This document shows positions 39,749-48,920 of a DNA stretch of 64,000 nucleotides, piece after piece. The notes under the pieces were generated by a model. The model was not told the DNA's origin. It did not search any database and saw nothing but the letters and a program-made list of their open reading frames with translations. Both the position numbers and the translations under genes were made by a program. The number at the start of each line of letters is the position of its first letter. The first letter of the stretch is position 1. Origin of the DNA: Streptomyces sp. NBC_01381 (lineage in GTDB: Bacteria; Actinomycetota; Actinomycetes; Streptomycetales; Streptomycetaceae); contig NZ_JAPEPI010000001.1 in NCBI RefSeq assembly GCF_026340305.1, positions 4,526,001 to 4,590,000 on the forward strand. The letters run 5' to 3'.

Positions 39749-40387
39749 ATGACCGACCTCACCACCGCATCGGCCGAAGAGTTCTGGGACGACCGCTACC
39801 GCGACAGCGACCGGATGTGGAGCGGCGAGCCCAACGCGTCCCTGGTCCGCGAGACCGCGGGCCTGACGCCCGGCAGCGCCCTCGATCTGGGCTGTGGCGA
39901 GGGCGGCGACGCGATCTGGCTGGCCCGGCAGGGCTGGCGCGTCACCGCGACCGACGTCTCCCGCGTCGCCCTCGACCGCGCGGCCGGCCACGCGGGACGG
40001 GCCGGTGTCGCCGAGCGGATCGACTGGCAGCGCCACGATCTCGCCGCTTCCTTCCCTGCGGGCTCCTTCGACCTGGTCTCCGCGCACTTCCTGCACTCCC
40101 TCGTCGAGATGCCCCGCGAGCAGATCCTGCGCAACGCCGCCGGAGCGGTCGCGCCGGGCGGCGTCCTGCTGGTCGTCGGCCACGAGGGGTTCCCCTCCTG
40201 GGAGCCGGGCCCGCACCCCGAGGTGCACTTCCCCACGCCGTGGGAGGTCCTCGCCTCCCTCGCCCTGGTGGCCGGGGCGTGGGACGTGCTCGTCAGCGAC
40301 ACCTACGAGCACCACCTCACCGCGCCCGACGGGCAGCCGTCCGTCCGGACGAACAACACCCTCGCGGTGCGCCGCCGAGCAGTCTGA
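39749..40387 (+). CDS. Class I SAM-dependent methyltransferase
   Basis: 212 residues from ATG 39749. SAM-binding motif I is ALDLGCGEGGDAIWLARQGW, motif II region ITATDVS-like VTATDVSRVALDRAA, and a post-motif RHDLAASFPAGSFDLVSAHF. The start EEFWDDRYRDSDRMWSGEPN is typical of the TehB/thiopurine-methyltransferase-like group that methylates metalloids, thiols or small halides. Divergent from the XRE-cupin regulator, a recurrent pairing in actinobacteria. The substrate cannot be told from the sequence. Confidence 0.9.
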   Translation: MTDLTTASAEEFWDDRYRDSDRMWSGEPNASLVRETAGLTPGSALDLGCGEGGDAIWLARQGWRVTATDVSRVALDRAAGHAGRAGVAERIDWQRHDLAASFPAGSFDLVSAHFLHSLVEMPREQILRNAAGAVAPGGVLLVVGHEGFPSWEPGPHPEVHFPTPWEVLASLALVAGAWDVLVSDTYEHHLTAPDGQPSVRTNNTLAVRRRAV

Positions 40388-40597
40388 TCCGGCCCTTCCC
40401 GCCAGGTCCGCGCGGCGTCGGCCGGTCCCACTGACCGCCTCCTGTCGCACCCGGTCTCCCGGCCTGGCTCGTGCGGGTGGAACCTGCCCCCGTCGTATTG
40501 CTCCGGCTCCCGGCTCTCCCCATACTGCTGGCATCGGGGGAGGGCGGGTCGTGCTGGCCGCCCAGTGATGACGCCCGCTCCCGGGTGGGGGTGGGAC

Positions 40598-42295
40598 ATG
40601 AGCGTCCACAGTGGCAGCCCGGAAAGGGCACCGTCGGGGGACCGGCGGACCGGCGCGCGAGAGGCCCTGAGCATGCTCGCCCGTACGGCGACGGCGGGCG
40701 GTGCGGAGGAACTCGGCGGGACCCTGGACACCGCGGCACGGCGCCTCGCGGAGCCGATGCGGCTCGCGGTCGCGGGTCAGCTCAAACGCGGAAAGTCGAC
40801 CCTGGTCAACGCGCTGCTCGGCGAAGAGGTCGTGGCGGTGGGGCAGTTGGAGACGACGTTCAACGTCACCGAGTTCCACCACGCGGCGCGCCCCCGGTTG
40901 ACCGTGCACTACAAGGGGGACCGCCCGCCCCGCGAGGTCTCGCCCGACGAACTGGCACGTCTGTCCGTGCGGGACGCCGCATCGCTCGACACCCTGCGGG
41001 GCATCCGCAAGCTGGCGGCCGGGTGGCCCAATGAGCTGCTCAAGGCCTTCCACCTGGTGGACACCCCCGGTCTGGCCAGCGTGCACCGCACCGACGCGGC
41101 CAACGCCGCCGCCTTCCTCGGCATCCAGGACCCCGCCGCTCAGGAGGAGAGCCAGGAGGTGCTCGACGCCATCGGGCGGGACGCGCAGGAGGTGCACGAC
41201 GACAGCGTGGCCGAACTCGACCGTGCGGACGCCGTGTTGTTCCTGTTCACCCGGGCCCTCGGCAGGGCCGACATCCAGGTCGTCGAGGAGTTCGTCGGTG
41301 CGCATCAGAGCGCGGTCAACGGCCTGCGGGCGTTCGGCGTGCTCACCCGCTGCGACCAGTTCTGGCCGCCGTCGGCGGACCTGCCGGGACAGCCCGACCC
41401 TTTGGAGTACGACCCGCTGGATGCCGGACGCGAGATCCTGGCCGGCTATCTGGGGCGCCCCGCGCTGCGTGCCGCCTTCCACACGGTGCTCCCGGTCGCG
41501 GGACTGACCGGCCTCGGCGCGCAGACCCTGACCGACGACGAGTACGTGTCCCTGGTGAAGCTCGCCGACAGCGACGCCCAGGTCCTGGTGAACCGGTTGC
41601 GCAGCGAGCGCAGGTTCGCCCGGCAGCCGTACGAGGATCTGCCCGTCCCGCCGGAGGAGCGTGCCCGGCTGCTGCACCGGCTCGGCGCATGGGGTGTGCA
41701 CCGCGCGTGCGTCCTGATCCGCCGGGGCACGGACCTCGACGACGTACGCGGGACCCTGCTCGCGGACAGCGGCGTGGCGGCGCTGCGTGACCTGATCGTC
41801 GAGCACTTCGGCAACCGCTCCGGGCTGATCAAACTCGACTCCGCGCTGCGCCTGGCCACCGCTTCCGTCCACCGGTCGCGTGCCCTGCCCCGCGACCGGG
41901 CCCACGGCTTCGCGTTCGCCGAGACGGTGAACACCGTCGGCGCCGCCCTGGAACGCTTCCGGCTCAGCGATCCGGGCCCCGCCGAGATCGCCCTGCTCAC
42001 CGGCCTGTACCGGGGCGACTTCGACTTCACGGACGCCGAGCGCGACGAGGTGCTGCTGGTCACGGGGGAGCGGGGACGGTCGGCCCGGGCCCGGCTCGGC
42101 CTTGCCCCGGACGCACCCCTGTCCGCGTTCCGCACCGCCCTCGCGGAGCTGCGGGCGGCCTGGCGGGTGCGCGTCGACGACCCGTTCCACGCGCCGCCCA
42201 CCGTTCTCGCCGCGCGCACCGTGCTGCGTACGTACGACCGGATCGCCGACCGCGTGGCGTCGGCGGAGCGGCTGCTGTTCCACGACACCGACTGA
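40598..42295 (+). CDS. Dynamin-like GTPase A of the GTPase-Hsp70 cassette
   Basis: 565 residues from ATG 40598, behind a purine-rich GGGTGGGGGTGGGAC. Large GTPase motifs: G1 GQLKRGKST (60-68), a switch Thr in QLETTFNVTEF (about 87), G3 DTPGLAS (155-161), and a divergent G4 TRCDQF (250-255). Between G3 and G4 is an insert with IQDPAAQEESQEVLD; dynamin-family GTPases often carry inserts here. The remaining 300 residues are helical but hold no hydrophobic anchor. It looks like the first gene of the cassette, followed after 50 bases by the GrpE-like gene. No proven target; membrane or filament remodelling is typical of dynamins. Confidence 0.87.
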   Translation: MSVHSGSPERAPSGDRRTGAREALSMLARTATAGGAEELGGTLDTAARRLAEPMRLAVAGQLKRGKSTLVNALLGEEVVAVGQLETTFNVTEFHHAARPRLTVHYKGDRPPREVSPDELARLSVRDAASLDTLRGIRKLAAGWPNELLKAFHLVDTPGLASVHRTDAANAAAFLGIQDPAAQEESQEVLDAIGRDAQEVHDDSVAELDRADAVLFLFTRALGRADIQVVEEFVGAHQSAVNGLRAFGVLTRCDQFWPPSADLPGQPDPLEYDPLDAGREILAGYLGRPALRAAFHTVLPVAGLTGLGAQTLTDDEYVSLVKLADSDAQVLVNRLRSERRFARQPYEDLPVPPEERARLLHRLGAWGVHRACVLIRRGTDLDDVRGTLLADSGVAALRDLIVEHFGNRSGLIKLDSALRLATASVHRSRALPRDRAHGFAFAETVNTVGAALERFRLSDPGPAEIALLTGLYRGDFDFTDAERDEVLLVTGERGRSARARLGLAPDAPLSAFRTALAELRAAWRVRVDDPFHAPPTVLAARTVLRTYDRIADRVASAERLLFHDTD

Positions 42296-42345
42296 ACGTC
42301 TGCGTTCCAACGGCCCATGAAGAACGGCCCATGAAGGAGGCCGAG

Positions 42346-43011
42346 ATGACACGGCGACACCCCTGGTGGGACCCGCGCTCGTGGTGGAACCGATGGCGAG
42401 GTCTCATGCCTCGGAGGCGGGGTGCGGAACCGGACGCCGCGCGGGAGGCGGCGTCCGAGCCGCAGTCGGAACGGGCCCCCGAGCCGCAGGCGGTGCGGGC
42501 CCCCGCGCAGGCTCCCCAACAGGTTCCCGAGCCCGCTCACGCGACGCAGGCCGCCATGAAGGTCGAGCCCGCTCACGCCCAGGCCGTCATGAAAGCCGAG
42601 ACGGCTCCCGAACCGCCGCCCCCCGGCCCGGTGTTGACCGCCGCTCCGGTCGCCGAGGCCGACGGGGAGGGGCCGCTGCCCGTCGTGTCCGGCCTGATCG
42701 ACGTCCTGGACCGCGTCGCGGTCCTGCGCGGGCGGCCCGCAGGCGTGCCGCTCGACGCCTCCGTGCTCGACTGGCTGGAGCAGTCCGTCCTGCGGATGCT
42801 CGCCGACTGCGACGTGCGGCCGTACGAAGGGGAGGGCGAACTCGACCCGCAGCGCCACGAGTCGGTGCTCTCCGAGCCCGCACCCAGGCCCGAACTGATC
42901 AACCACGTCGCGACCAATCTGCGCCCCGGCTATCTCTGGCGCACCGAACCGGTGCGTCCTGCCCAGGTCACCGTCTACGTGGCCGCGAAGCGAGGAGCCG
43001 GCGATGACTGA
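42346..43011 (+). CDS. GrpE-like putative nucleotide exchange factor
   Basis: 221 residues from ATG 42346, five bases after AAGGAGG. N-terminus: a Trp/Arg-rich segment (HPWWDPRSWWNRWRGLMPRR), then about 75 Pro/Ala/Glu-rich residues likely disordered. The C-terminal 110 residues follow GrpE: LIDVLDRVAVLRGRP (117-131) like the LLPVLD.LERA helix, DWLEQSVLRMLADCDV, ELDPQRHESVL (165-175) matching FDPxxHEAV, and LRPGYLWRTEPVRPAQVTVYV (192-212), trimmed, matching the final KGY...RPAxVxV. The long dimerising coil of GrpE is missing. An Hsp70 two genes downstream is its logical partner. It overlaps the next gene by eight bases. Confidence 0.75.
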   Translation: MTRRHPWWDPRSWWNRWRGLMPRRRGAEPDAAREAASEPQSERAPEPQAVRAPAQAPQQVPEPAHATQAAMKVEPAHAQAVMKAETAPEPPPPGPVLTAAPVAEADGEGPLPVVSGLIDVLDRVAVLRGRPAGVPLDASVLDWLEQSVLRMLADCDVRPYEGEGELDPQRHESVLSEPAPRPELINHVATNLRPGYLWRTEPVRPAQVTVYVAAKRGAGDD

Positions 43012-44905
43012 CCCCCAGCCGCTGCGGGCCCGCGCCAAGACCCTGTTCACGGACGCCGAACAGACCCTGCGCGCCGACCCGGAGGTGGGGCGGGAGCCGC
43101 TGCGCCGCCTCGAAGAGCACCGCGCCACGCTGGAGGGCCTGCAGTACCACGTGGTCGTCTGCGGCGAGTACAAGCGCGGCAAGTCGAGCCTGCTCAACGC
43201 ACTGATCGGCCGGCCGGGCCTGTTCCCCGTCGACGTGCACGTGGCGACCAACACCGTCTCCACCCTGGAGTACGGCCACGAAGAGCGGGCCACCGCCTAT
43301 CTCGCACCGGAAGGGGAGGGCGAGGAACTCACCGCGGTGGACGTGCCGTTGGCCGAACTGCGCGACTACGTCACCGAGCAGAAGAACGAGCAGAACGTAC
43401 GCAACGTCCACCTCGTCCGCATCCAGCTGCCGCTCGACCCGCTGCGCACCGGCCTCGTCATGGTCGACACGCCGGGCGTCGGCAGCATGAACCTCGCCCA
43501 TGACGCGGCAACGCACGCGTTCCTCGGGCAGGCCGACGCGCTGATCTTCGTCGGTGATCTGGTGGTCACCTTCAGCACCGACGAACTCGCCTTCCTGGAA
43601 CGGGCGTTGGCCAAGTGCCCGACCGTGATCACGGTGCTCACCCGCAGCGACCAGGTGGTCGACCCCGACCCCTCGCTGCGGGCCGCACGCCGCAAGATCG
43701 CCGATGTGACCGGGCGCGCCGAAGCCGACCTCGTCGTGCTGCCCGTGTCATCGCCGCTGCGCGCCTCCGCCTGGCAGTCGGGCGACGTCGAGATGCTCGC
43801 CGACTCCGGCTTTCCCGACCTGGAGAAGGAGCTGTGGGACGGCCTGGTGACGCGGGTGGGCCGGCAGCGGGTCGCGCGCTGCGCCGTGGGTCTGGCCGAC
43901 GCCCTGACCGCCGCCCGCGCGCCCATCGACCTGGCCCTGGAGAGCCGCTCCGACGCGGAGATCGAGCGGTTCGACCAGGAGCTGGCCCGCCGCGCCGAGC
44001 TTGCGGCGGACCTCCAGGCGCGCAGCGCGCACTGGCGCACGGAGCTGCCCCGGGTGTTCCACGACGAGACCCGGCGGATCAAACGGGGGCTCCAGGGCAT
44101 CTTCGAGGCCGCCTGCCAGGACTTCTCCGCGGCCGCCGCGATGGTGACCGATCCGGGTCAACTCGACGGCACCGTACGGGAGATCGGGCGGCTCTTGGTG
44201 GACGGGGTCGAGGTGGCGATGGACCAGCTGCGCAGCGCCGCACGCCAGGTGCAGCAGGCCTTCGCCGCCCAGACCCAAGTCCCCTACCAGCCCGCCAGTT
44301 TCAGCGTGGGCGGGTTCACTCCGGCGCTGCACGGCGTCAGCGCGTCCCCGCCGGAACTCGACGCGGGATCGGGGCAGCCGGCCCACCATCTGAGCAACAC
44401 CTGGCGGTCGGCCATCGCCGGTGCCGGGCTCGGCGGAGTGATCGGCGGCATGATCGGCGCGGTCGGCGGGCCGCCGGGCATCGCCGTCGGCGCGGCGCTC
44501 GGCGGGCTCCTCGGCAAGGTCGTGGGCGCCATCACCGGCTGGTCCGACTCGCGGCGCGCGGAGCGCGAGCGCGCCGAGCAGCAGCGCAAGGAGTGGTCCA
44601 GGGAGGCGGTCCGCGCCCTCACCTCCGGGACGCTGGCGCAGATCAGGGCCAACGAGGCACGCGCGCTCGCCGCGTTCGACGACGCGGCGCGGGAGATCTC
44701 ACGGCTCCTCGTCGCCGACATCGAGCGCGGCATCGAAGAGGCAAGGGAGTCCCTGGAACGCTCCCGCAGGGAAGTGGAGGAGCAGCGCAGGCGCAGCGAG
44801 GCCGAACAGCGCGCACGGCGGGCGGAGCTGACGGAGCGCAGGGACGGCTACACCCGACTCATCGAATCGGCACAGGAGTTGGCGGACCTGGCGGGTGGGC
44901 CATGA
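43004..44905 (+). CDS. Dynamin-like GTPase B with glycine-rich membrane segment
   Basis: 633 residues, ATG within the GrpE-like stop region. GTPase: G1 GEYKRGKSS (54-62), switch Thr in VATNTVSTLEY, G3 VDTPGVGSMN, G4 TRSDQVV (213-219). Helical middle, then a glycine-zipper-like stretch at about 469-512 (AIAGAGLGGVIGGMIGAVGG, PGIAVGAALGGLLGKVVGAI), long enough for one or two membrane passages as in mitofusin/BDLP-type dynamins. The end (540-625) is a charged coiled coil (REISRLLVADIERGIEEARE, SLERSRREVEEQRRRSEAEQ). The stop overlaps the Hsp70 start by four bases. Confidence 0.88.
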   Translation: MTDPQPLRARAKTLFTDAEQTLRADPEVGREPLRRLEEHRATLEGLQYHVVVCGEYKRGKSSLLNALIGRPGLFPVDVHVATNTVSTLEYGHEERATAYLAPEGEGEELTAVDVPLAELRDYVTEQKNEQNVRNVHLVRIQLPLDPLRTGLVMVDTPGVGSMNLAHDAATHAFLGQADALIFVGDLVVTFSTDELAFLERALAKCPTVITVLTRSDQVVDPDPSLRAARRKIADVTGRAEADLVVLPVSSPLRASAWQSGDVEMLADSGFPDLEKELWDGLVTRVGRQRVARCAVGLADALTAARAPIDLALESRSDAEIERFDQELARRAELAADLQARSAHWRTELPRVFHDETRRIKRGLQGIFEAACQDFSAAAAMVTDPGQLDGTVREIGRLLVDGVEVAMDQLRSAARQVQQAFAAQTQVPYQPASFSVGGFTPALHGVSASPPELDAGSGQPAHHLSNTWRSAIAGAGLGGVIGGMIGAVGGPPGIAVGAALGGLLGKVVGAITGWSDSRRAERERAEQQRKEWSREAVRALTSGTLAQIRANEARALAAFDDAAREISRLLVADIERGIEEARESLERSRREVEEQRRRSEAEQRARRAELTERRDGYTRLIESAQELADLAGGP

Positions 44906-46116
44906 GCGGCGCGGCACCCGGGCCCGTGCACGGGATCGACTTCGGTACGTCCACGTCCGCGCTCCTCATCGGACGCCCTGACGGCACGGTGACAGGGGTC
45001 AAGGACCCCGCCGCACCGCACGCCGGTCTGTCCATCAGGACCGCCGTGTGCCCCACACCGCGCGGTGAACTGGCCGTCGGACAGGCCGCGTTCGCGATCC
45101 GCATGGCCAACCCGGTCGAGTACCACGCCGAGTTCAAGCGGCACTTCGGCGAGTCGGTGCCGCTCCTCGTGGCGGGCCGCGCACGGCAGCCGCACGAGCT
45201 GACCGGCGAGATGCTCTCGTTCCTGCGCTCCTGCGGGCTCAAACAGGTCCCCGAGGAACCGCGGGCCGTGGTGATCACCGTCCCGGCGAGCTGGGAGGCG
45301 GGCAACCGCGAGCTGATGCTGGAGGTCGCCGAGGCCGCCGGATATCAGCGGTCGACCGTACGCCTGGTCACCGAACCGGTGGCGGCGCTCGCGCACGCCT
45401 TCGCGGAACACCGCCCCGAGGACCGGCACTGCTTCCTCGTGTACGACCTGGGCGGTGGCACCTTCGACGTGGCGGTCGCGCGCAGCGCCGGCGCGGAGTT
45501 CGAGCTGGCCGGGGCGCCCGGCGGCCTCGCGGACGTCGGCGGCGGCGCCTTCGACCGGGAGATCCTGCGCTGGCTCTCCACGCGCTTCCCCGAAGTGGTG
45601 CGCACCGCCCTGGAGGCCCCCGCGCAGAACGGATACGCCCTCCTGGAGCGGCTGCAGATGCTCTCCCAGTGCCAGACGCTCAAGCACCAGCTCTCCGTGG
45701 TGAACGACCACACCGAGTACTTCGCGGCCGACGGCGGATTCGTGCCGGTGACCATGGACAGCGGTGAGCTCGCGGAGCTGCTCGGCCCCTTCCTCGAACG
45801 CACCCTCACGGAGTGCGAGCGCACGCTCGCCGCCGCGGGGCTCGGCTGGGCGGACGTCGACGCGGTCGTGCCCGTCGGCGGCAGCAGCCGGCTGCGCGCG
45901 GTGGGCGGGGCCCTGTCGGACCGGTCGCGGCGGACCGTGCGGCTGCTGCCCGACCCGGACCTCGCGGTGGCCGGCGGCGCGGTGCTGCTCGCCCGGCGGG
46001 TCCTCGCCGAGGGGGAGCTGCCGCCGGGGCTCGCGCCCGGCGACCCGGTGGCGCGGCAGCTGCGCGCCGGACTGAACCACGACCTCATCGCGCTCGTACG
46101 CAGGCAAGCGCGCTAG
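44902..46116 (+). CDS. Hsp70-like protein reduced to the ATPase domain
   Basis: 404 residues versus about 620 for DnaK. ATPase motifs: GIDFGTSTSALLI (11-23, phosphate 1), VITVPASWEAGNRELMLEVA and TEPVAALAHAFAEH (connect region), VYDLGGGTFDVAVA (180-193, phosphate 2), DVGGGAFDREIL, and VPVGGSSRLRAVGGAL (323-338, adenosine). It stops after a short helical end; there is no substrate-binding beta-sandwich or lid. So it either works as a switch for other proteins, or needs a partner for client binding. The GrpE-like gene two positions upstream suggests nucleotide exchange control, and the two GTPases are candidate clients. Confidence 0.9.
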   Translation: MSGAAPGPVHGIDFGTSTSALLIGRPDGTVTGVKDPAAPHAGLSIRTAVCPTPRGELAVGQAAFAIRMANPVEYHAEFKRHFGESVPLLVAGRARQPHELTGEMLSFLRSCGLKQVPEEPRAVVITVPASWEAGNRELMLEVAEAAGYQRSTVRLVTEPVAALAHAFAEHRPEDRHCFLVYDLGGGTFDVAVARSAGAEFELAGAPGGLADVGGGAFDREILRWLSTRFPEVVRTALEAPAQNGYALLERLQMLSQCQTLKHQLSVVNDHTEYFAADGGFVPVTMDSGELAELLGPFLERTLTECERTLAAAGLGWADVDAVVPVGGSSRLRAVGGALSDRSRRTVRLLPDPDLAVAGGAVLLARRVLAEGELPPGLAPGDPVARQLRAGLNHDLIALVRRQAR

Positions 46117-46122
46117 CGAACC

Positions 46123-46170
46123 AACATCCCGACCGACCCGGAAGCGAACATCCCGACCGACCCGGAAGGA
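46123..46170 (+). repeat. 24-base direct repeat between the Hsp70-like and YbjN genes
   Basis: Two adjacent units, 46123-46146 and 46147-46170, read AACATCCCGACCGACCCGGA then AGCG or AGGA. The second unit supplies GGAAGGA, the ribosome binding site of the YbjN gene. A recent duplication; it may space the last gene. Confidence 0.85.
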
Positions 46171-46179
46171 GTGGTCCCC

Positions 46180-46608
46180 ATGGCCACCTTCAGCGACACC
46201 TGGCGTCAGCTGCTGCACGACTACGCGCGCGAGAAGGACTACCGCTATCAGGTCAGCGGTGACACGCGCCTGCTGCAGTTCTCCGTGGACAACCCCGGCC
46301 GCGACAGCGTCACGCTCCTCGTGGCGGACATCGGCGAGATGGTGCACTTCTCGATGACCGACAGCGGCTTCATCCCCAAGGACAAGGTGCCGCTGGCCGT
46401 GGCGGCGGTGAACCAGTACAACCAGGAGCACCTGCTGCCCAAGGCGTATGTGTACGAGAACGACAGCGGGCAGAGCGACCTGCACGGCGGCTGGACGCTG
46501 CCGGGCATGCTGACGGTCACCCCCGCGCAGTTCTCCGAGATCATGGACTGGGCGCTGAGCGTGTGTCTGGAGCTCTTCGACTGGCTGCACGAGCACTACG
46601 GACTGTGA
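46180..46608 (+). CDS. YbjN-domain protein
   Basis: 142 residues from ATG 46180 behind GGAAGGAG. It has the YbjN/type III chaperone-like alpha-beta pattern (TWRQLLHDYAREKDYRYQVS, TLLVADIGEMVHFSMTDSGF, PLAVAAVNQYNQEHLLPKAY, GMLTVTPAQFSEIMDWALSV). The family resembles secretion chaperones that hold unfolded partners. Being last of the GTPase-Hsp70 cassette, 63 bases after the Hsp70, it could provide the client-binding that the shortened Hsp70 lacks. That is inference. Confidence 0.82.
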   Translation: MATFSDTWRQLLHDYAREKDYRYQVSGDTRLLQFSVDNPGRDSVTLLVADIGEMVHFSMTDSGFIPKDKVPLAVAAVNQYNQEHLLPKAYVYENDSGQSDLHGGWTLPGMLTVTPAQFSEIMDWALSVCLELFDWLHEHYGL

Positions 46609-46659
46609 TCGAGCCAGTACAACAGGGCCGCTTCGTGGAAGAGGGCGATCAGGAGATAT

Positions 46660-48920
<2,261 letters not shown>

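Follow-up and report, generated by a model that had tools for sequence, protein, structure and literature searches.

An IniC/IniA-like dynamin pair encoded with a GrpE-like protein and an ATPase-domain-only Hsp70 in Streptomyces: a candidate ATP-switched membrane module

Results

The window, a 64,000-nt stretch of the Streptomyces sp. NBC_01381 genome, carries five co-directional open reading frames on its plus strand between positions 40598 and 46608, encoding two dynamin-like GTPases (dynA and dynB), a GrpE-like protein, an Hsp70 reduced to its nucleotide-binding domain (NBD) and a YbjN-family protein (Table 1). These genes wholly occupy the 40387-46674 interval, with the IniC-like gene first. 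The original prediction had named five genes in one direction with intact GTPase and Hsp70 nucleotide motifs, and we recovered all five reading frames and their Pfam families on this strand; inspection of the motifs agreed as well. It had further described the three middle junctions as overlapping. The 8-base overlap between the GrpE-like gene and dynB (43004-43011) and the 4-base overlap between dynB and the Hsp70 gene (44902-44905) are real, but the remaining two of the four junctions are not overlaps: 35-50 bases separate dynA from the GrpE-like gene, and ~60 bases the Hsp70 gene from the YbjN gene. The GrpE-like gene probably starts at the ATG at 42346, which has AAGGAGG upstream, rather than at 42331; the YbjN gene is preceded by GAAGGAG.

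Table 1. Genes and features of the cassette, in window coordinates
Feature	Position	Strand	Pfam match; alternative start
dynA, IniC-like dynamin GTPase, 565 aa	40598..42295	+	Dynamin_N, 4.9e-11; GTG 40565
GrpE-like protein, 221 aa	42346..43011	+	GrpE, 23.9 bits; 42331
dynB, IniA-like dynamin GTPase, 633 aa	43004..44905	+	Dynamin_N, 4.6e-24
dynB glycine-zipper/hydrophobic segment, residues ~470-510	44411..44533	+	Gly-zipper_YMGG, 2.1e-5 (sub-threshold)
NBD-only Hsp70, 404 aa	44902..46116	+	HSP70, 1.3e-34 (NBD positions only)
YbjN-family protein, 142 aa	46180..46608	+	YbjN, 1.6e-9; GTG 46171

Judged by sequence comparison, dynA and dynB are a dynamin pair of the IniC/IniA type. Residues 33-607 of dynB, nearly its full length, align to residues 24-582 of IniA (M. 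smegmatis structure 6j72; E = 1.5e-29), and its hydropathy is highest in the glycine-zipper segment, which aligns with the region of the IniA tip, or lipid-interacting loop. This loop comprises residues 480-492 of IniA, which has membrane-binding and membrane-cutting activity in vitro (PMC6715688). No strong membrane segment is present in dynA, whose fold was predicted with a mean pLDDT of 77.7 and matches bacterial dynamins, IniA and mitofusin, and which is 49% identical to a paralogue in the same genome (locus L013); its profile picks up an IniC-like gene of ~500 aa that, in mycobacteria and others, lies next to the IniA-like gene. When the cassette was examined with PADLOC, the dynamins gave only LeoA/LeoBC-like matches (a weak resemblance in the case of dynB), and the GrpE-like, Hsp70 and YbjN proteins gave none. 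The IniC/IniA-type nature of the dynamins, and the Hsp70-like companions of such dynamins across actinobacteria, had been overlooked in the first reading of the locus.

The Pfam match of the Hsp70 stops at position 372 of 599 (beginning at 104) and the protein itself ends at 404 aa, as expected for the ATPase-domain-only Hsp70 that had been proposed; both the substrate-binding (peptide-binding) domain and the interdomain linker are lacking. The phosphate-1, phosphate-2 and adenosine motifs are kept, together with the catalytic Lys and the catalytic Glu, and the best solved relative is Geobacillus DnaK (2v7y). The Asn and Thr of the DnaK NEPT motif, which are J-protein contact positions, are replaced by Thr and Val, and Pfam detected no J-domain among the cassette's five products. 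Restriction of the best-scoring HSP70 stretch to the NBD was seen in all eight dynamin-linked Hsp70s scanned, and their C-termini consist of a transmembrane helix or a propeller, or are absent. In the mycobacteria examined, a membrane segment is predicted in the Hsp70-like partners, and their catalytic motifs are degenerate, with Lys changed to Val and GGGTFD lost; ATP turnover therefore cannot be universal in dynamin-linked Hsp70s.

The GrpE likeness predicted for the second gene was upheld through its beta-domain: the Pfam match (E = 3.6e-5) falls just below the 25.8-bit cut-off and covers only profile positions 97-163 of 165, and a profile-profile comparison with canonical GrpE returned a probability of 96.4% (E = 1.4e-9). 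A basic, proline-rich N-terminus is followed by a short helical region, corresponding to the end of the GrpE helix, and by the beta-domain; the long dimerisation helix is not recognisable, the match starting at position 97. The homologue from Frankia scores above the Pfam cut-off and aligns with solved GrpE over 37-179, long helix included. An AlphaFold model of the protein (mean pLDDT 50.7) was too poor for structure search. At L013, L050-L052, L055 and L153-L155, as in the window, the gene sits between dynA and dynB; it is missing at L047-L049, L053 and L147, and is therefore not essential to the module. In the paralogous cassette, the gene in the corresponding place encodes a protein with 28% identity to the YbjN protein (E = 1e-11).

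Gene order was compared with that in other genomes, and the set recurs in order at the diverged paralogous locus (L013) and in other species. Further copies occur in other Streptomyces and in Frankia, in line with the earlier suggestion that similar groups may exist in other actinomycetes, and an orthologous set lies on an Anabaena plasmid (Cyanobacteria). At one locus (L165) the set is kept with its order changed to dynA-GrpE-Hsp70-dynB. The idea of one conserved system gains from the gene order kept elsewhere and from a natural fusion found in a single Streptomyces example (L168), in which an IniC-like dynA and an Hsp70 NBD form one polypeptide of 1329 aa, strengthening the link between Hsp70 and dynamin. 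Trees of dynA, dynB and Hsp70 group the cassette branch in the same way. Linkage was scored from the dynamin side, because an Hsp70-only search of 60 relatives returned mostly DnaK. A non-DnaK Hsp70-like gene lay 0-4.2 kb from a dynamin gene in 35 of the 47 IniA/IniC-type loci of an actinobacterial class survey. The 48 other dynamin or GTPase loci, drawn from mixed phyla, had no such gene within up to 10 kb on either side. Such genes adjoin the IniA/IniC-type pair in mycobacteria too, including beside iniBAC. Since the pairing recurs across actinobacteria and on a cyanobacterial plasmid, we consider it a real, little-studied module.

The cassette type has a patchy distribution, being present in only 10 of 393 Streptomyces genomes, unlike a core developmental gene. 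We accordingly abandoned the sporulation role that had been suggested, which is weakened also by a separate dynamin pair in the same genome (L014) that has no Hsp70 or GrpE partners. An origin from a phage or virus was likewise rejected, since neither 50,697 phage records nor viral contigs yielded a homologue, as was recent insertion at a defined empty site: the adjoining isocitrate dehydrogenase gene differs in context in nine relatives, so that no empty site could be drawn.

Discussion

The reading we favour, with a probability of about one half, is that the cassette encodes an envelope-protective dynamin pair of the IniA/IniC type gated by a dedicated ATPase switch, composed of the Hsp70 and the GrpE-like protein. 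Its starting points are the observed gene content, homology to IniA, conserved linkage, loss of the substrate-binding domain and dynA-Hsp70 fusion, from which we infer a physical complex. Within it, dynB would attach to the inner membrane by its glycine-zipper tip and perform the remodelling, and dynA would be the regulatory partner, on which the Hsp70 ATPase domain docks. Because it has no peptide-binding domain, the Hsp70 would be a nucleotide-dependent clamp on dynA and not a general chaperone, and it is for the same reason that we favour an ATP switch over a classical chaperone. The dynA/dynB oligomer might be free to assemble in one nucleotide state of the Hsp70 and have its assembly locked in the other; the GrpE-like protein would reset the Hsp70, and YbjN would probably serve as an adaptor. 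The trigger may be envelope damage, the likely output being membrane fission, sealing or repair, as proposed for iniBAC. Loading or release of paired dynamins at a membrane by the Hsp70, as put forward in the original prediction, is a plausible though putative activity. Counting against the switch are the dispensability of the GrpE-like gene, the degenerate mycobacterial Hsp70-likes, the lack of a J-domain protein and the single instance of fusion.

A serious rival, possible though not probable, is that the dynamin pair and its Hsp70/GrpE switch sense or execute a membrane response to a phage or other invader. The cassette would then represent a dynamin-based equivalent of GTPase-centric conflict systems, among which DO-GTPase systems show the same HSP70/GrpE and kinase+PP2C+vWA themes (PMC7159879). 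An anti-phage or cell-death role is suggested by the proteases and kinase-phosphatase-vWA triads of close relatives, namely a TPR-CHAT caspase-like protein (L013, L047-L049 and L051), a C39-like peptidase, a kinase-PP2C-vWA triad directly upstream (L047, L048, L049, L052 and L053) and CHAT plus CATRA at the fusion locus; the Anabaena plasmid homologue comes with an annotated CHAT gene, C39, X and DO-GTPases. The patchy distribution and the weak likeness of dynB to LeoA/LeoBC point the same way. On this reading the window copy would be a reduced one, with protease effectors lost or the dynamins themselves as effectors. The window, however, holds no protease or kinase component between 40387 and 46674, the phage records and viral contigs yielded no homologue, and published work ties the wider Ini branch to envelope stress.

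It is rather improbable that the Hsp70 and GrpE-like proteins are mere dedicated folding helpers of unstable dynamins, with no regulatory switch. Translational coupling would indeed bring a chaperone to its client, and Wang et al. report that the poor stability of purified IniC prevented its study (PMC6715688). Yet none of the dynamin-linked Hsp70s scanned has a substrate-binding domain, the cassette encodes no J-protein, and many relatives are membrane-anchored, the mycobacterial ones being catalytically degenerate, which fits signalling or scaffolding better. That the genes lie together by accident or drift, each having independent partners, is very improbable: several relatives lack the GrpE-like and YbjN genes and gene order varies, but order is kept in the diverged paralogue and in several genera, and with the fusion, the cyanobacterial set and the co-branching trees, the linkage data already contradict this explanation.

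Extending the ATP switch beyond the window, we tentatively suggest that peptide-binding-domain-less Hsp70s might be the dedicated switches of IniA/IniC-type dynamins throughout actinobacteria and in some cyanobacteria, degenerating to pseudo-ATPases beside mycobacterial iniBAC and wired to caspase-like and papain-like proteases in an immune or cell-death membrane branch. IniA and IniC belong to the genes that front-line tuberculosis drugs induce in mycobacteria. In the literature covered we found no regulator of the IniA/IniC GTPase cycle; a conserved, sometimes fused Hsp70 ATPase partner is a concrete candidate. If true, this would give a role to an Hsp70 without a peptide-binding domain, and should the branch with proteases prove to act in defence, dynamins would join the chaperone-GTPase conflict systems of multicellular bacteria.

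Comparison with known systems

Our literature search found no paper describing the dynamin-GrpE-dynamin-Hsp70-YbjN combination, and two hints: M. smegmatis iniR (Boot et al., PMC5760070), which has an Hsp70-like gene beside it, and a cyanobacterial "chaperone clade" of bacterial dynamin-like proteins with a DnaK-domain protein encoded downstream of the dynamin (PMC5827413). The DnaK-domain neighbour of the dynamin in this clade is a putative counterpart of the cassette's Hsp70, whereas GrpE, present in like form in the cassette, goes unmentioned in that paper. Streptomyces DynA/DynB, paired sporulation dynamins in the summary of Schlimpert 2017 given there, resemble the cassette in their paired genes; in the present genome, however, the candidate DynA/DynB is the separate L014 pair. 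With DnaK-type Hsp70 systems the cassette has in common an ATPase domain with intact nucleotide motifs, and it differs in having no peptide-binding domain or linker and no J-domain partner in the operon.

Kaur et al. 2020 (PMC7159879) describe DO-GTPase/GAP1 conflict systems in which the GTPases are often paralogous pairs and which have HSP70 with GrpE and a second HSP70 that lacks the peptide-binding domain. The cassette resembles them in its paired GTPases, its HSP70 with GrpE and its truncated HSP70, and their kinase+PP2C+vWA theme is matched in the cassette's relatives. DO-GTPase (PF19975/PF19993) and GAP1 are nevertheless absent from the five proteins, whose GTPases are of the Dynamin_N family in Pfam, and the word "dynamin" is absent from that paper.

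The iniBAC operon likewise contains an IniA-like and an IniC-like dynamin, and Hsp70-like genes adjoin this pair across actinobacteria, mycobacteria included; IniB-like and STAND-LuxR genes are present in Ini-type loci such as L148. The cassette differs from iniBAC in placing the IniC-like gene first, in contrast to the order B-A-C, and in carrying a YbjN gene while lacking IniB and IniR genes, with the Hsp70 and GrpE-like genes lying inside the operon. Unlike the mycobacterial Hsp70-likes, which are catalytically degenerate and have a predicted membrane segment, its Hsp70 consists of the NBD alone, with its motifs intact.

A five-gene cassette with an ATPase-domain-only Hsp70

The five ORFs of the original prediction proved real and correctly placed, with one shared direction, and all five family names are backed by Pfam, the GrpE match being sub-threshold and limited to the C-terminal domain. 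Genes do overlap, by 8 and 4 bases, at two junctions rather than the three claimed. No sigma-70-like promoter was found for the cassette, which has few terminator-like patterns and is without protease genes. Between the Hsp70 and YbjN genes (46118-46172), a sequence of ~24 bases (acatcccgaccgacccggaag) occurs in two direct copies.

Coordinates of the cassette genes and flanking genes in the window
Feature	Position	Strand
Methyltransferase gene, flanking on dynA side	39749-40387	
dynA	40598-42295	+
GrpE-like gene	42346-43011	+
dynB	43004-44905	+
Hsp70 gene	44902-46116	+
YbjN gene	46180-46608	+
Monomeric isocitrate dehydrogenase gene, flanking on YbjN side	46674-48920	

By sequence comparison, dynA and dynB are an IniA/IniC-type pair. 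Residues 33-607 of dynB align with 24-582 of the solved mycobacterial dynamin IniA, nearly its whole length (E = 1.5e-29), and the glycine-zipper segment (residues ~470-510) maps to the IniA tip region, which holds the lipid-interacting loop according to Wang et al. (PMC6715688). The dynA profile picks an IniC-like gene of ~500 aa adjoining an IniA-like gene in mycobacteria and other actinobacteria, and the predicted fold of dynA is that of a bacterial dynamin (mean pLDDT 77.7).

As claimed, the window Hsp70 consists of the ATPase domain (NBD) only, terminating at residue 404, with intact phosphate-1, catalytic Lys, catalytic Glu, phosphate-2 and adenosine motifs. Among solved structures it comes closest to Geobacillus DnaK (2v7y, E = 6e-31); the alignment spans residues 9-364, the NBD. 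At the J-domain contact the protein has TEPV where DnaK has NEPT, and no J-domain gene was found in the window cassette; given the established role of this contact, dependence on DnaJ may be looser.

Compared with the canonical GrpE profile, the cassette GrpE family scored 96.4% probability (E = 1.4e-9) across the last helix and beta-domain, and a Frankia homologue aligns with solved GrpE across 143 residues, which together justify the GrpE name for the family; the window protein is best described as a reduced form of GrpE, its predicted structure model being of unusable quality. A further GrpE scoring 62.8 bits, distinct from the canonical protein, adjoins a repeat-rich ORF elsewhere in this genome (L010, C2:1772639) and is possibly part of another Hsp70 system.

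Conservation and Hsp70 linkage

Conserved co-occurrence, the check proposed originally, was found: the cassette recurs in its own genome (L013), other Streptomyces (L047-L053) and Frankia (L055). The second, diverged cassette of the same genome lies at C2:3213700-3221000, within L013:4647-15001 (C2:3210646-3221000). Its genes run dynA, C39-like peptidase, GrpE-like, protein X (unknown), dynB, Hsp70, YbjN, a divergent TPR-CHAT gene accompanies them, and its identity to the window is 49% for dynA, 43% for GrpE, 39% for dynB, 46% for Hsp70 and 28% for YbjN. An 866-aa ORF with a weak dynamin match adjoins it (L013:978-3578, - strand). Two genes separate dynB from Hsp70 in Frankia (L055:14127-16051) and by eye resemble a transposon of the IS607 type, made up of a resolvase gene and a TnpB-like gene.

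The dynA type is rare in Streptomyces (10/393 genomes), and a dynA/IniC-type gene occurred in 51 of the 395 genomes of a class-wide sample, from which 47 loci were examined over their full length, with genes in all compared loci called mechanically as ORFs. An Hsp70-like gene, defined as scoring higher against dynamin-linked Hsp70 profiles than against DnaK, lies 0-4.2 kb from a dynamin gene in 35 of these 47 loci, which are not independent because many are mycobacterial; by genus, the link holds in 14 of 19 sampled (hand tally). Three of the other 12 loci (L153-L155) carry a GrpE-like gene between both dynamins instead. In contrast, none of 48 loci from mixed phyla that hold dynamin or GTPase genes of other kinds had such an Hsp70. 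Genomes of 5-8 Mb hold a handful of Hsp70 genes, and we roughly estimate that chance would place one within 10 kb at ~1-2% of loci.

Two branches, reordering and fusion

Trees of dynA, dynB and Hsp70 share the same split into two branches. The Ini branch has IniB-like genes and, in the example scanned, a STAND-LuxR (IniR-like) gene; its Hsp70-likes carry a strongly hydrophobic segment C-terminal to the NBD, then a tail. In mycobacterial iniBAC-type loci (L163, L181, L182, L184, L187, L188, L192, L197 and others), Hsp70-like genes number one or two and encode a predicted membrane segment; in the mycobacteria examined, their products have lost the catalytic Lys and phosphate-2 motif and thus look like pseudo-ATPases. 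In several Mycobacteriales-like genomes, a canonical dnaK lies ~10 kb or less from the Ini-type pair (L174, L175, L187, L191, L195, L200, L214).

In the second branch, which includes the window cassette, the Hsp70s are of NBD-only, membrane-hairpin or propeller type, and CHAT, C39, kinase-PP2C-vWA or CATRA genes accompany many of the cassettes. Plasmid NC_019428 of Anabaena sp. 90 (L201/L202) encodes orthologues of dynA (E = 1e-132), dynB (E = 5e-115), the NBD-only Hsp70, C39 (45% identity) and X, near an annotated CHAT gene and DO-GTPases. The gene set therefore spans phyla and can reside on a plasmid, its cyanobacterial distribution being based on one plasmid and one paper.

Gene content is kept where order changes: L165 reads dynA-GrpE-Hsp70-dynB, with a CRP-like regulator, and L147 reads dynA-dynB-Hsp70, the Hsp70 bearing a WD40 propeller. 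In one Streptomyces locus (L168), dynA and the Hsp70 ATPase domain share a single polypeptide of 1329 aa, with a beta-propeller after them. This retained content and the fusion point to dynA as the Hsp70 partner. The fusion gene adjoins CHAT and CATRA genes (L168:2271-13082). Upstream of the L147 and L165 cassettes lie similar-looking proteins with no Pfam match (L147:7361-8311; L165:7384-8436), which, with the CRP-like gene of each locus, may form a cyclic-nucleotide circuit.

Proposed mechanism and relation to known systems

We propose that dynB would be the membrane-active partner and dynA the regulatory one, on which the Hsp70 ATPase domain would act as a nucleotide-controlled clamp, reset by the GrpE-like protein where present. 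A clamp is favored over a chaperone because the dynamin-linked Hsp70s scanned have no peptide-binding domain, because one Hsp70 is fused to dynA, and because mycobacteria retain the domain though degenerate. By analogy with iniBAC (PMC6715688, PMC5760070), the likeliest output is upkeep of the membrane when the envelope is attacked. The main rival is a conflict system, on account of the gene company kept by close relatives of the cassette and of the HSP70+GrpE and kinase-PP2C-vWA themes shared with the DO-GTPase systems of Kaur et al. (PMC7159879).

A literature search covering few subscription papers found nothing on this combination beyond two hints, a dnaK-like gene 3' of iniR in M. smegmatis (PMC5760070) and a DnaK-domain gene downstream of a cyanobacterial dynamin clade (PMC5827413). 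We therefore regard the cassette as a novel version of something already known, IniA/IniC-type dynamins, here combined with a putative Hsp70/GrpE switch of their own.
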